DNA of 64,000 nt from Phormidesmis priestleyi Ana (GCA_001314865.1 LJZR01000002.1:248001-312000), one strand, 5' to 3'. Counted from the first letter of the stretch, positions 1,822 through 47,636 are shown. Translations and numbers: made by a program. The notes: generated by a model not told the origin, from the sequence alone.

Positions 1822-3669
1822 ATGCAAAAAATTTTAGTCATTGAAAGCCCAGGTGCTAGGCGTACTGACTTAGTCGGCTATCTAGAATCTGAGAAGTTTC
1901 TCGTCAATACCGCAGATGACGGCTCAACAGGGGTGAAGGCCGGTCGGCAGCATCGGCCTGATGTGGTTCTATGTAGTGCTGAGTTTTTTACGCCGGGGTT
2001 AACGGGGCTTCAGGTGCTTCAGATGATGCGCCAAGATCATGAACTACGGCTAACGCCGTTCATTTTGCTCACTGATGACACTGCGCGATCGCACATTCGC
2101 CAAGCGATGGAACTCGGCGCCGATGACTGCATTGTGCGGCCAGTCAGCCATCCCGAAATTGGTAATACCATTGCCGCCCGCATCCGGCGGCAAACCGCCA
2201 CGAGCGAACTGTATCTCACCACGCTGCGTAACACTGCTGAGCAAATCAATCGGCTAGCCCACTACGACGCCCTTACCGATCTGCCAAACTATCGGCTGCT
2301 ACATCAGCGGCTGAGCCAAGCCATTACCATTGCTCATAGTAGCCAGCAGACGCTTGCTTTTATGTCAGTCAGCCTAGATCGCCTGCGGCTGGTCAATACC
2401 GTCATGGGCTACCCAGCCGGAGATGAACTGCTCAAAGCGTCTGCCCGTCGGATGCAGGCTTGCCTGCCGCCCGAGGCCACCTTAGCCCGCCTGACTGCCA
2501 ACCAGTTTGCCGTTGTGCTACCCAACTTGCCCCGCCCTCAGCAAGCACGCGAAACCGCCGAAAACCTGATGGATGCTCTGAGTCGTCCGTTTTCACTACC
2601 CGGCCAAGAGATTTTTGTAACCACCAGTATTGGCGTGGCCTTTTTGCTGCATCAAAGCGAAGATATCTACACGCTGCTACGACAGGCCGATGCGGCGCTA
2701 GAATCTGCCAAAAAGCAAAAGAGTAACTACTGTCAGTTCTATCGGTCTGATATGCCAGTCGCTTTTAGCGACCAAATTTCGATGGAGACTTGGCTGCGCT
2801 ACGCGCTAGAGCGCAGTGAGTTTGAGGTGTACTATCAGCCCCAGCTCAATTTAAGTAACAATCGAATCGAGGGCTGTGAGGCCCTGATTCGCTGGCGTCA
2901 TCCTGAGCATGGCTACATCTCCCCAGCCAAGTTTGTGCCCCTCGCAGAAGAAACCGGGCTGATTATTGACATTGGTCAGTGGGTGCTCGAAACCGCTTGC
3001 AGTCAGGCCAAGCGCTGGCAGCAGATGAATTTAGGTATGAAGTACATATCGATTAATCTATCGAGCGTGCAGTTTAATAAGCCCAACCTAATCGATTCCA
3101 TTAAAAATACGCTGGCCACGACTGGGCTGGCCCCTTATGAGCTGGAACTAGAGGTGACTGAAACTGCCTTGATGCAGGATGCCGAATCTGCGATCGCCAT
3201 CCTTACAGAGCTAAAAACGTTGGGTATTCGCACCGCTATTGACGACTTTGGGACTGGTTACTCATCGCTGAGCTACCTCAAAGAGCTACCGGTTGACACG
3301 CTAAAAATTGACAATTGCTTTGTGCGGGGAGCTAACCACGATCCCAAAAATCAGGCCATTTTGCAGTCCACCATTGAGCTGGCCCATCGGCTAGGCCTCA
3401 AAGTTGTCGCTGAAGGCGTCGAAAACCTCGAAGAGCAAGTGTTGCTCACCCATTACAACTGCGACTATCTGCAAGGGTTTTGGGTCGGTCGTCCAATGAC
3501 CGCCAGTGATGTTGAGAAAAAATGTGCGATCGCCCCAGTTGCTCCAGTTATTGAGCATTCTGCTGAATCTTTTGTTGACCCTAATACCGCACCGTTGGCC
3601 AAATCTCCTGCTCAGCCCTCTGCTGAACCTATCGTGGGTTTAGTTCAGGGTTATAGCTCCAGATTTTAG
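1822..3669 (+). CDS. Degenerate receiver - degenerate GGDEF - EAL protein (probable c-di-GMP phosphodiesterase)
   Basis: The 615-aa protein has three domains: receiver (about 1-125), GGDEF (about 140-300) and EAL (about 325-575). In the receiver, the position of the phosphorylated Asp is Ser (PDVVLCSAEF), the acidic pocket is reduced to ES, and the conserved Lys is Arg (IVRPV). The GGDEF signature reads TANQF, so cyclase activity is unlikely. The EAL domain keeps CEALIRW, INLSS, ELEVTE, the loop DDFGTGYSS, LKID and EGVE, which are the residues that bind metal and hydrolyse c-di-GMP. The sequence therefore predicts a phosphodiesterase whose upstream domains may sense a ligand or GTP rather than phosphate. 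The stop codon lies inside the first unit of a 13-bp tandem array. Confidence 0.9.
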   Translation: MQKILVIESPGARRTDLVGYLESEKFLVNTADDGSTGVKAGRQHRPDVVLCSAEFFTPGLTGLQVLQMMRQDHELRLTPFILLTDDTARSHIRQAMELGADDCIVRPVSHPEIGNTIAARIRRQTATSELYLTTLRNTAEQINRLAHYDALTDLPNYRLLHQRLSQAITIAHSSQQTLAFMSVSLDRLRLVNTVMGYPAGDELLKASARRMQACLPPEATLARLTANQFAVVLPNLPRPQQARETAENLMDALSRPFSLPGQEIFVTTSIGVAFLLHQSEDIYTLLRQADAALESAKKQKSNYCQFYRSDMPVAFSDQISMETWLRYALERSEFEVYYQPQLNLSNNRIEGCEALIRWRHPEHGYISPAKFVPLAEETGLIIDIGQWVLETACSQAKRWQQMNLGMKYISINLSSVQFNKPNLIDSIKNTLATTGLAPYELELEVTETALMQDAESAIAILTELKTLGIRTAIDDFGTGYSSLSYLKELPVDTLKIDNCFVRGANHDPKNQAILQSTIELAHRLGLKVVAEGVENLEEQVLLTHYNCDYLQGFWVGRPMTASDVEKKCAIAPVAPVIEHSAESFVDPNTAPLAKSPAQPSAEPIVGLVQGYSSRF

Positions 3670-5133: not shown

Positions 5134-5847
5134 ATGAGCATCTTTTTTAACTTGGCCCACTTATTAACCCAACAATCCATCCAACGAGGGTTTAACCCAA
5201 AAACGTCAGTTAAAGCTGCGTTGGCGACAACGTTGGCCATGCTATCAGCGGGCATAGTGGGCTGTCAGCCAGAAACGAGCATCCTGCCTAAAAATACGTC
5301 TACAAATACGGACAATCGGTCTGAGGATGTAGCCCTTATGGAGCAAGTGACGGGGCAGGTAGACAAAACTAAAACCACCAAGGGAGATGCGACTGCCAAA
5401 GCGGTCTCTCAGGAAGAAAGTGCTGCGCTCCCAAGTATGAGCCGATATACCTTAGAACGTTCGAGCAATCAGTCGTCGAACTCGTCTTTAGAAACGTCAG
5501 TAGCGGCGGCTTCAAATTTGGACAAGGGGCTTGAACCGGGAGAATATTGCTTTTATAAGACGGGTAATGAAAACTGGCTGAGCATTCGCTTGCATGTAGA
5601 TGACAATCAGCAGCTGAAGGGTGAAAGTGCGGGCAGCGTGAATCATCCTCAGCAGGGTGAGCTGGTTTATCAGCAGGTTTTTGCTGGAGAATTGATGGGC
5701 GATCGCGCGATGGTCAATGTCACCACATATATCGCAGATACCTCGCAAAGCCGCAAAGAATCCTGGATAGTCAATCCGAATGAGCTTGATATGGGCCGCG
5801 TTGCGATTGAAGAAGCGACTTGTTCGGATCTGCCACCTAGCCTTTAG
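5134..5847 (+). CDS. Putative lipoprotein, unknown function
   Basis: A 237-aa protein from ATG 5134; an in-frame GTG at 5104 would add ten residues. After a rather long N-terminal stretch there is a hydrophobic segment (AALATTLAMLSAGIVGC) ending in a lipobox-like IVGC, then a Ser/Thr/Lys-rich linker. The C-terminal half has a small-domain look (GEYCFYKTGNENWLSIRLHV, LKGESAGSVNHPQQGEL). Two Cys (YCFYK and ATCSDL) remain in that domain. I do not recognise the family. Predicted location is the periplasmic face of a membrane. It stands alone between prxQ and the zinc operon. Confidence 0.7.
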   Translation: MSIFFNLAHLLTQQSIQRGFNPKTSVKAALATTLAMLSAGIVGCQPETSILPKNTSTNTDNRSEDVALMEQVTGQVDKTKTTKGDATAKAVSQEESAALPSMSRYTLERSSNQSSNSSLETSVAAASNLDKGLEPGEYCFYKTGNENWLSIRLHVDDNQQLKGESAGSVNHPQQGELVYQQVFAGELMGDRAMVNVTTYIADTSQSRKESWIVNPNELDMGRVAIEEATCSDLPPSL

Positions 5848-44429: not shown

Positions 44430-47400
44430 ATGGATCAAGTCCTCGGCGCACTCCTTATTTTCACCCTAGTGCCTCTGCTCGGCGCACTCCCCCTGACGGG
44501 TTGGATAGTCCGCCTCCTTACTGGCAAACAACTTGCTACCCTAGGCACTGGCAACACCAGCGTGTCAGCCGCCTTTTACCACGGTGGCACCCTTCCAGGC
44601 ATATTTTCTGTCACCGCCGAAGCGCTTAAAGGCATCGCCGCCGTTGTAATCGCCCGCTACTTTTTTGGCAGTGACGCCATTTGGCCTGTCCTCTCTCTCA
44701 TATTTTTAGTGATGGGCCGCTACTGGGGGAGCCAAGGTGCTGGCACTACCAACGTTGCTTGGGGCTTTTTGGCCTACGATCCGATCGTGGCTGGGCTGAC
44801 TTTTCTGATTAGCTTTATTGGGTTTACCCTTTTGCGAATGCGCGATCAGGGCCGACTGTTTGTGCTGGTTCTCATGCCTGTGCTGACTGCGTTGCGCCAT
44901 CCTACCGACGGTATGCGCGTCTTAATTGTGGCCTGCCTGTCAGGTGTTGTAGCCTGGATATATCACAAAATACCCGACGACTTAGATTTACCGATTGCCA
45001 ACAGTACTGGAGAGTCTCGGCGCATGTTTCGATTTTTTCAGGGCGATCGCGCCTTAAAGTCCCTCAACACCCGATTGAGCCCCAAAGATGTCGGCGAAAA
45101 AGCAGCCACCCTTTCTGAGCTGCACTACTGGGGCTACCCGGTTCCACCAGGATATGTCATCGCGGCAGGCGACGACCCGGCTGCGCTTATTGCCACTGTG
45201 TTTCCTGGCATTGCCAACCCCATGGACAATGTCACTCACGATCAAAAAGTTGTCGCCCGTTCCTCGGCCCTTGGCGAAGACTCGCTGACCTCATCAGCCG
45301 CAGGCCAGTATGTTTCTGTCACTAATATCACCAGCCCTGCTGCCCTAGAGCAAGCCATTATTGCCTGCTTTAAAGCCTACAACGCACCTAGCGCCGTTCG
45401 CTACCGACAGTCGCGCAATTTGCCCGAAGGCAAAATGAATGTCCTGGTGCAGCCCCATATCTCAGGGCTTTATTCTGGCGTCGCCTTTAGCCGCGACCCC
45501 ATGGCTCATGCAGGCGATGTTGTTGTCATAGAAGCTTTGCCTGGAGAAGCCAGCCAAGTCGTCTCTGGCAAAATAACGCCCGAGCGCTACCAGGTGGTTG
45601 TCTCTGATGTGTTAGATGCCGCTTTTGGTTCTTCTAAGAATGATTCGGATGTCTCGGATGTCTCGGATGACTCGGATGCCTCGAAGAACTCATGGCAGAT
45701 GCCCTCAGATCTGGCTTTGCCGGTCACGGGCAAAGGGAAAACGCCTACCGATTTGATTCAACAGGTCGCCTATCTGGCCCGCCATCTTGAAAATCGCTTT
45801 CATGGTATTCCACAAGATATTGAGTGGAGCTTTGATGGTCAGCAGCTTTGGGTGTTACAGAGCCGCCCTATTACGACCTTGCTGCCGATTTGGACCCGGA
45901 AAATTGCTGCTGAGGTCATTCCGGGCGTGATTCGTCCGCTTACTTGGTCTATCAACCGACCGCTCACTTGTGGCGTATGGGGCGATTTATTTACGACTGT
46001 TCTGAAAGACCGGGCGGCGGATATTGATTTTTCGCAAACGGCAACGCTGCACTATATGCGAGCGTACTTTAACGCGACTTTGCTCGGCGATATTTTTATT
46101 CGGATGGGTCTGCCGCCCGAGAGTCTAGACTTTTTGACGCGGGGAGCTAAGTTTAGCCGTCCGCCTTTGGGTGTGACGCTGAAAAATGCGCCTGGACTTT
46201 TCCGACTGCTGGGTCAGGAGATGAGTTTGCCGCGTCAGTTCGCTCGGGTTAACACGGCTGAATTTGCCCCAGCATTAAAGAAACTGCAAAACGAGCCGAT
46301 CAAAGATTTGTCTTTAGGCGCGATCGCCCCACGAATCGAAACAATCCTAGCGTTGCTAACACAGGTAACCTATTACAACATCATGGCGCCGTTGAGTTTG
46401 GCCCTGCGACAGGCCCTATTCAAGGTGGATTTGGCGACCTTAGACAACGCTCAAAGTCCTGAGATAATGGCCGTAGAAGCGCTCAAAAAGATGGCCGACG
46501 ATGTGCGATCGCTGCTGCCCCAGCTAGGCCTCCATTCCCTCTCAGACGATATCTCAGGCAACGCCGTTTGCACGCCGCCCAATAACAGCGCTTCGCTATT
46601 CGCCGCCCTTTCCGAACATCCAGAAGGCCATCGCGTATTCAATCAGCTCGATCAGTTTTTAGACGAATACGGCTATCTGAGCGATGTTGCGACCGACATC
46701 GCGGTTCCAACCTGGCGCGAGTCCCCCCAGCCCGTTCGCGAGCTGTTAGCTCAGTATCTGTTTAATTCAGAGCCCAGCCAGTCAAAAACCAGCCAGTCAA
46801 AAACCAGCCAGTCAACACCTAAAAATAACGGATCTACCAGCGGATCTGGTTGGCGCTACCGGCAGGTGCAGGCCCGACTCAATCTCAAAGGCCAAGTCGC
46901 AGAAGTGTACAACCGACTACTGGCAGCATTACGAAGCTGCTTTGTAGAAATAGAAAGTCGTTGGTTAACAGCCGGATGGCTCGAAGCTCAAGGCGATATT
47001 TTCTTTTTGAGCTGGGATGATATTCGCGCTCAACTGCTGGCTGCGACCGCTCAACCGGATGAAAGCATGCGATCGCCGACAGAAATGTCACAAGCACCGT
47101 TGATGGAACCGCCCACAGACCCGTACGAAGCCCTCCGCCTCAAAATTGTGCTGGAGAAAGCGCATTGGCAAAGGCAACAGGGCACAAGAGTGCCTAGCCT
47201 GGTGTACGGAAATACCCCACCGCCGCTGGCCTCATCTACCGTCACTACTAATACCCTTCCGACGATATCTTCGGGTACGCTACAGGGGATTGGTGCGAGC
47301 AACGGATGCGTAGAAGGGACGATTTGCGTGCTAGAAGCCCTACCAGAATCGGCAATCGATATTAATGCTCAGACCATTCTAGTGGTTCCCTACACCGATG

Positions 47401-47636
47401 CTGGATGGTCTCCGCTACTGGCCCGCATTGGGGGCCTGATTGCGGAAGTGGGCGGCCAACTCTCTCATGGTGCAATTATTGCGCGTGAATATGGCATTCC
47501 TGCTGTTATGGACGTTAGCAACGCAACCCATCGGCTCAAAACGGGCCAGCGGGTACGGATTGACGGGCAACGTGGCACAATCGAAATCTTATCGATTCCT
47601 TGTAAGCAGTTGGGCGATCGCCCCAACCAACCTTAA
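44430..47636 (+). CDS. PlsY-like membrane domain fused to a PEP-synthase/rifampicin-phosphotransferase-like dikinase
   Basis: 1068 aa. Residues 1-185 are a multi-helix domain resembling PlsY, the acyl-phosphate G3P acyltransferase (GTGNTSVSAAFYHGG, GRYWGSQGAGTTN, LRHPTDGMR), but the glycine-lysine phosphate motif of true PlsY is missing. Residues about 207-480 are a PPDK/PEP-synthase ATP-binding domain (SPKDVGEKAATLSEL, VARSSALGEDS). A middle region (WTRKIAAEVIPGVIRPLTWS onward) resembles rifampicin phosphotransferase. Residues about 950-1060 are the swivelling phosphohistidine domain, with the His in GGQLSHGAIIARE (about 1012). Substrate unknown. Two low-complexity inserts come from 9- and 15-bp repeats. 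The downstream neighbour is a lipase-like hydrolase. Confidence 0.85.
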   Translation: MDQVLGALLIFTLVPLLGALPLTGWIVRLLTGKQLATLGTGNTSVSAAFYHGGTLPGIFSVTAEALKGIAAVVIARYFFGSDAIWPVLSLIFLVMGRYWGSQGAGTTNVAWGFLAYDPIVAGLTFLISFIGFTLLRMRDQGRLFVLVLMPVLTALRHPTDGMRVLIVACLSGVVAWIYHKIPDDLDLPIANSTGESRRMFRFFQGDRALKSLNTRLSPKDVGEKAATLSELHYWGYPVPPGYVIAAGDDPAALIATVFPGIANPMDNVTHDQKVVARSSALGEDSLTSSAAGQYVSVTNITSPAALEQAIIACFKAYNAPSAVRYRQSRNLPEGKMNVLVQPHISGLYSGVAFSRDPMAHAGDVVVIEALPGEASQVVSGKITPERYQVVVSDVLDAAFGSSKNDSDVSDVSDDSDASKNSWQMPSDLALPVTGKGKTPTDLIQQVAYLARHLENRFHGIPQDIEWSFDGQQLWVLQSRPITTLLPIWTRKIAAEVIPGVIRPLTWSINRPLTCGVWGDLFTTVLKDRAADIDFSQTATLHYMRAYFNATLLGDIFIRMGLPPESLDFLTRGAKFSRPPLGVTLKNAPGLFRLLGQEMSLPRQFARVNTAEFAPALKKLQNEPIKDLSLGAIAPRIETILALLTQVTYYNIMAPLSLALRQALFKVDLATLDNAQSPEIMAVEALKKMADDVRSLLPQLGLHSLSDDISGNAVCTPPNNSASLFAALSEHPEGHRVFNQLDQFLDEYGYLSDVATDIAVPTWRESPQPVRELLAQYLFNSEPSQSKTSQSKTSQSTPKNNGSTSGSGWRYRQVQARLNLKGQVAEVYNRLLAALRSCFVEIESRWLTAGWLEAQGDIFFLSWDDIRAQLLAATAQPDESMRSPTEMSQAPLMEPPTDPYEALRLKIVLEKAHWQRQQGTRVPSLVYGNTPPPLASSTVTTNTLPTISSGTLQGIGASNGCVEGTICVLEALPESAIDINAQTILVVPYTDAGWSPLLARIGGLIAEVGGQLSHGAIIAREYGIPAVMDVSNATHRLKTGQRVRIDGQRGTIEILSIPCKQLGDRPNQP
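46776..46820. repeat. 15-bp in-frame repeat in the dikinase fusion gene, 3 units
   Basis: AGCCAGTCAAAAACC occurs twice plus a diverged copy, encoding SQSKT repeats between domains. Confidence 0.93.

Follow-up and report, generated by a model that had tools for sequence, protein, structure and literature searches.

We found that one gene in the window (the whole 64,000-nucleotide stretch of Phormidesmis priestleyi Ana DNA analysed here) encodes a membrane domain with the fold of the G3P acyltransferase PlsY, joined to a complete phosphohistidine dikinase. The residues with which PlsY holds G3P are replaced in the fusion, and the family has invariant pocket motifs of its own. We suggest that the fusion is a cyanobacterial membrane-integral small-molecule dikinase whose membrane-soluble substrate is held or delivered by the PlsY-like domain, a reading in which we have about even confidence.

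The gene is a single open reading frame, open across all 1068 codons, with the following layout.

44430..47636, + strand: complete fusion gene, 1068 aa (PlsY-like membrane domain, ATP-grasp, RPH-like middle, His swivel domain).
44430..44999, + strand: PlsY-fold membrane domain, residues 1-190 (PF02660, E 1e-15; AlphaFold; PlsY crystal structures, Z 18).
45042..45881, + strand: ATP-grasp (PPDK_N) domain, residues 205-484 (PF01326, E 6.5e-37; alignment to RPH-Lm 5FBS).
45882..47264, + strand: helical middle (acceptor) domain, rifampin phosphotransferase (RPH)-like, residues 485-945 (profile and fold match to RPH).
47265..47591, + strand: phosphohistidine swivel domain, residues 946-1054 (PF00391, E 1.3e-22).

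The Pfam match to PF02660 (G3P_acyltransf, PlsY) covered residues 15-179 and scored 58.7 bits against a cut-off of 24.1. Matches to PF01326 (PPDK_N) at residues 270-484 and to PF00391 (PEP-utilizers) at residues 979-1049 were each far above cut-off. An earlier sequence-only reading had proposed that a PlsY-like domain and a complete phosphohistidine dikinase, with a swivelling His domain carrying GGQLSHG, lie in one chain. The open reading frame, the Pfam matches, the fold matches and the presence of that motif bear this out. A frameshift or an assembly error joining two neighbouring genes is ruled out by the many independent assemblies, finished chromosomes included, in which the fusion is a single ORF; frayed copies in three genomes (G005, G016 and G041) are the exceptions. 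The fusion is a genuine single gene. The window protein also contains two low-complexity insertions that are absent from most relatives (45618-45680, SSKNDSDVSDVSDDSDASKN; 46773-46820, PSQSKTSQSKTSQSTP).

Structure models were consistent with this layout. The AlphaFold model of the N-terminal 207 residues (pLDDT 88, pTM 0.85) matched the aaPlsY crystal structures 5XJ5-5XJ8 with Z 18.0-18.5 and an rmsd of 2.7-2.9 Å over 177-184 residues (VIA-align). Compared with Aquifex PlsY, the TM score was 0.7 at 17-19% identity (Foldseek, VIA-align). The next fold matches were unrelated structures at only Z 6. A phmmer search of the N-domain sequence against PDB chains gave no direct match; the fold search did. 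The resemblance to PlsY claimed for the first ~185 residues is thus significant both by profile (PF02660, E 1e-15) and by fold. The remainder of the chain matched rifampin phosphotransferase (5HV1 and relatives) by profile and, from a low-confidence model, by fold. The family profile aligned to RPH-Lm in the ATP-grasp and swivel domains and in the second half of the acceptor domain; that second half, together with the fold match, supports the proposed RPH-like middle. The full-length AlphaFold model was weak (pLDDT 66, pTM 0.43) and too unsure to show whether the PlsY groove touches the acceptor site; its best matches were rifampin phosphotransferase structures over most of the chain and PlsY over the N-domain.

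We compared the PlsY site in 64 N-domains and 28 canonical cyanobacterial PlsY proteins. In aaPlsY, the phosphate of G3P is clamped by Ser35, Arg45, Lys104 and Asn180, His177 contacts the 2-OH of G3P, and His92 contacts the acyl phosphate (PMC5700162). The Ser35 position was Thr in 62/64 N-domains (Ser in 28/28 canonical PlsY), the Arg45 position was Tyr in 60/64 (Arg in 28/28) and the Lys104 position was Gly in 64/64 (Lys in 28/28). Arg97 occupied the His92 position in all 64. Motif 3, with His177 and Asn180, was absent from the fusion (the NI motif was found in 28/28 canonical PlsY), and its His column held Tyr178 in 61 of the 64 N-domains. GAGTTN stood in place of the GGK(G/S)VAT phosphate loop, so that the PlsY half does lack the GGKGVAT-type loop and other key residues, as had been noted. 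Single mutants of aaPlsY are crippled at these sites, with 17% of activity left in S35T, 1% in R45A, 7% in K104A and 2% in H92K; T41S retains 45% (PMC5700162). Replacement of all the G3P-holding residues argues that the fusion is not a G3P acyltransferase, as the sequence-only reading had surmised, and the effects of the aaPlsY mutations make PlsY-type activity very unlikely.

The replaced residues were not simply variable. Two motifs characteristic of the fusion occupy the corresponding loops.

44544..44588, + strand: loop-1 motif GTGNTSVSAAFYHGG, residues 39-53, standing where PlsY has GSG(S/N)xGATNxxR.
44715..44765, + strand: loop-3 motif GRYWGSQGAGTTNVAWG, residues 96-112, standing where PlsY has GHxxx...GGK(G/S)VAT.

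Among 58 distinct full-length proteins, G39, N42, A47, A48, F49 and G53 of loop 1, R97, G105, T107, W111 and G112 of loop 3, and E64 were each found in 58/58; the Lys of PlsY loop 3 was absent and its His was Arg97. The family's own invariant motifs (GTGNxSVSAAFYHGG, GRY and GAGTTN) were invariant even in the deepest members found. The fusion thus shares with PlsY the whole membrane-domain fold, a Gly-rich loop 3, loop-1 hydroxyl residues and a conserved Lys-Gly at 67-68. It differs from PlsY in the G3P clamp residues, the His177 motif, Lys104, the change of His92 to Arg, a loop 3 that is four residues shorter (hand count on the alignment) and the new invariant motifs. We take the invariant replacement residues to reflect selection for a different ligand or partner.

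The host genome has a separate, intact plsY, for which a check had been proposed. This gene (G000:C9:64859-65428) lies on another contig, is ordinary (218 codons) and is the sole further PF02660 gene; the genome has one plsX. In two distant genomes (L001 and L161), canonical plsY adjoins a permease gene and a small membrane protein gene. The permease is presumably MlaE-like, and these surroundings suggest a conserved lipid-transport neighbourhood. Short plsY-flanking sequences of L161 (~1593-1640, 2890-2950, 3021-3050 and 5751-5792) occur in dozens of places in G109 and G117 and are dispersed repeats.

Two near-complete genomes, G098 and G109 (L142, L143, L163), had both the fusion and plsX, yet a canonical plsY was not detectable in them at E up to 10, and G109 had no extra PF01553 gene that might supply a compensating PlsB/PlsC-type acyltransferase when compared with same-genus genomes. 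These genomes might indicate that the fusion is a working G3P acyltransferase able to replace PlsY. However, every G3P-contact residue is replaced in their fusion proteins too, in the same way as in the others, and we therefore do not take them as working PlsY. In aaPlsY, no single substitution at these sites leaves more than about a quarter of the activity (PMC5700162). Moreover, a same-genus genome (L161) carries, in one block, genes for a permease, a small membrane protein and a coiled-coil protein together with plsY; G109 lacks this whole block, plsY and what lies upstream of it, but retains the genes that follow. The absence is possibly a deletion or an assembly gap. We consider replacement of PlsY by the fusion extremely improbable.

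The acyl-phosphate half of the PlsY site is less damaged than the G3P half. In aaPlsY this half-site consists chiefly of backbone amides together with Thr41 and His92 (PMC5700162). The Thr41 position retains a hydroxyl in the fusion (Ser46 in 53/58 full-length relatives), the Gly-rich loop is kept as GAGTTN, the basic Arg97 is invariant, and only the G3P half-site is wiped out; the T41S activity given above fits with this. The dikinase might therefore convert a free fatty acid or other carboxylic acid to its acyl phosphate, with the PlsY-like half acylating an acceptor other than G3P, since PlsY chemistry takes an activated acyl donor of a kind that a dikinase could supply. Against this, the H92K mutant is nearly inactive, although Arg was not among the mutants in that work (PMC5700162), loop 3 is shortened, and we found no characterised dikinase in the literature that makes an acyl phosphate. 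We regard this route as attractive but distinctly unlikely. A related possibility is that the fusion is bifunctional: its RPH-type dikinase would produce an acyl or prenyl phosphate, which the PlsY-derived domain, its G3P site rebuilt, would use or present for transfer to a new acceptor. This, too, seems improbable.

The dikinase half is complete in its nucleotide-binding and phosphohistidine parts, as had been claimed. K224, R277, E465, Q477 and R479 of the ATP-grasp domain were each found in 58/58 full-length relatives, and in alignments K224, R277, Q477 and R479 are the equivalents of Lys22, Arg117, Gln309 and Arg311 of RPH-Lm; E465 likewise corresponds to one of its nucleotide residues. 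Three further features lie in the acceptor and swivel domains.

45891..45983, + strand: near-invariant block WTRKIAAEVIPGxIRPLTWSINRPLTCGVWG, residues 488-518 (family alignment).
46887..46892, + strand: K820-G821, at the position of RPH-Lm Arg666-Glu667 (K820 in 56/58, G821 in 54/58).
47466..47468, + strand: catalytic His1013 in GGQLSHG, found in 58/58 full-length relatives and aligned with the RPH-Lm swivel motif.

K820-G821 was placed only tentatively, by hand and with no gaps allowed, taking the DI(F/Y)FL motif shared in the profile alignment as anchor; in the same hand alignment, RPH-Lm Lys670 falls on a variable position of the fusion. E495 (57/58) was placed at RPH-Lm Gln337 by a similar ungapped hand count, just as tentatively. 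The acceptor step of RPH-Lm requires Arg666 and Glu667, and the Arg-Glu pair and the Lys are retained even in the distant clade Q (PMC4844700). Because the catalytic Arg666-Glu667 pair is aligned with Lys820-Gly821, phosphotransfer chemistry at the acceptor site of the fusion is not assured. The acceptor site is conserved, yet it appears to have been rebuilt.

The dikinase half did not fall within a named family. Like RPH-Lm (5FBS/5HV1) and the small-molecule dikinases (HpeHI, PpsAB and CreHI, and the PigC/RedH ligases), it has an ATP-grasp domain, a helical acceptor domain and a C-terminal swivel His. With RPH-Lm it shares, in addition, the ATP-site residues Lys22, Arg117, Gln and Arg as well as the catalytic His; it differs in its extra N-terminal membrane domain and, by the hand alignment, in having Lys-Gly for Arg666-Glu667. 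Many PEP synthase-like, RPH and PigC/RedH models of NCBIfam matched the window protein far below their curated cut-offs (148-232 bits against 850-1700 for the RPH, PigC, RedH and PRK06241 subfamilies), and the same models matched 19/19 relatives scanned. We rejected identity with the resistance enzyme rifampin phosphotransferase (218.8 bits against a family cut-off of 999). We also rejected identity with PEP synthase or PPDK. These enzymes have ATP-grasp and swivel-His domains in common with the fusion, but the fusion has no Pfam match to their C-terminal PEP/pyruvate-binding barrel, and its chain ends after a swivel domain that is C-terminal rather than central. Work on HpeHI shows that the small-molecule dikinase class has a wide variety of substrates (PMC12167813).

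Reduced relatives of the fusion bear on the role of the PlsY-like pocket. Four relatives of 596-683 aa (L090, L092, L094 and L095, from G007, G027, G020 and G031) have the PlsY-like, ATP-grasp and swivel domains but not the acceptor domain, and two of the four have Asn for the catalytic His. All are second copies, from one genus, and adjoin a short-chain dehydrogenase gene. Seven relatives of 392-428 aa (L131-L136 and L150; the L135 genome is presumably Synechococcus elongatus PCC 6301) consist of membrane and ATP-grasp remnants only, with frames still open. One relative of 932 aa has Gln in place of the catalytic His. The loop-1 motif was lost in 12/12 reduced relatives (N42 in 0/12), which retain the membrane helices. 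In all 71 sequences compared, the loop-1 motif went together with an intact acceptor domain plus catalytic His (59 with both, 12 with neither). On a tree built leaving out the columns of the scored traits, both changed four times, always together, on at least two well-supported separate branches; with only 2-4 independent events, the sign test for joint loss gave p 0.5.

The joint loss suggests that the PlsY pocket serves catalysis rather than anchoring alone, although overall decay of genes that had already lost their function could also explain it. The PlsY-like domain might be only a membrane anchor or localisation module, with the RPH-like middle alone binding the substrate. All of the G3P residues are lost, the reduced relatives keep membrane helices without the pocket motif, and both RPH and HpeHI function without a membrane part (PMC4844700, PMC12167813). 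However, the loop-1 and loop-3 residues are invariant over a deep divergence, a constraint not expected of a mere anchor, and the pocket motif is lost jointly with the acceptor domain or the His. That the loop-1 motif is never kept or lost without them argues against the PlsY part as an anchor only, and we consider that reading unlikely. The sequence-only reading had offered a membrane anchor or a substrate-presenting domain; the former, as a degenerate anchor alone, is not favored, and substrate presentation agrees with the strictly conserved pocket motifs and their loss together with parts of the dikinase.

Some relatives without the acceptor domain, the His or both remain open ORFs, suggesting non-catalytic roles there. 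These would fit a phosphate-relay regulator in which the phosphohistidine and swivel domain report ATP or energy state, or phosphorylate another protein, and the membrane domain acts as sensor. Most members, however, have a long and strongly conserved acceptor domain, as expected of a small-molecule kinase, and we think a regulator quite improbable.

The gene neighbourhood gave little indication of a substrate. Upstream of the fusion is a divergent DUF3352 gene and downstream is a Hydrolase_4 (monoglyceride-lipase-like) gene. The latter had been taken to fit lipid chemistry, and it is indeed present, but it was found 4-106 bases 3' of the fusion only in the host genus and one further genus. 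Because it is confined to close genera, an argument for lipid from this neighbour is weak and says little about the substrate. No other neighbour of the fusion was conserved across families. Elsewhere in the window, 39912-40604 encodes a 230-aa protein with a C-terminal NYDRP repeat tract and no Pfam match. We rejected replacement of DgkA or CTP_transf_1-type lipid kinases by the fusion, as both families were present in 21/21 genomes with or without it; CTP_transf_1 also covers CdsA, and phytol kinase is not separable in this comparison.

The fusion occurs across the cyanobacteria, in agreement with the mention of similar cyanobacterial annotations in the sequence-only reading. A query with the N-domain gave matches in 49/58 related genomes, mostly in frames of 950-1085 aa. 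In a class-wide sample of 195 Cyanobacteriia genomes (at least 95% complete), about 109 encoded the full N-domain within a single reading frame of 900 aa or longer, and there were a few interrupted copies besides. We counted the 109 by hand from the match table; the automatic tally, 131, also takes in reduced forms and weak hits on canonical PlsY. In the phylum's other classes, each of 79 sampled genomes had just one PF02660 gene, or none. A scan of genome contigs, whose reach was limited to close relatives, found fusions only in cyanobacteria and dikinase-only matches elsewhere. Two fusion carriers are, we assume, Gloeobacter violaceus and G. kilaueensis, so that the fusion would reach back close to the root of the class. 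Our literature search on this architecture, or on a cyanobacterial PlsY/dikinase fusion, found nothing relevant and no reported function.

We favor the reading of the fusion as a membrane-integral small-molecule dikinase. In this mechanism, ATP would charge His1013 (ATP -> AMP + Pi) and the swivel domain would bring the phosphate to the acceptor site. The PlsY-like groove, with its loop-1/loop-3 pocket, would hold or deliver a membrane-soluble substrate: a molecule with a hydrophobic tail that is an alcohol, a phenol or a carboxylic acid. Phosphorylation would turn it into an activated, lipid-like product. The sequence-only reading had proposed a lipid headgroup, a polyol or an isoprenoid as possible substrates. 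No acylation of G3P by the PlsY-like domain would be involved.

More than half of the Cyanobacteriia genomes sampled, probably with Gloeobacter among them, thus encode a large enzyme for which we found no assigned function. Scored against reference models, it comes out as PEP synthase-like or as a G3P acyltransferase. Should it prove to be a membrane dikinase, it would to our knowledge be the first RPH-type enzyme acting at the membrane, and knowing its substrate would reveal a new step in the lipid, isoprenoid or quinone metabolism of cyanobacteria. If it is instead bifunctional, it would represent an undescribed cyanobacterial lipid-activation route. The family is also a clear example of a fold, that of a core lipid enzyme, apparently rebuilt for a new ligand, with the reduced forms as natural controls.
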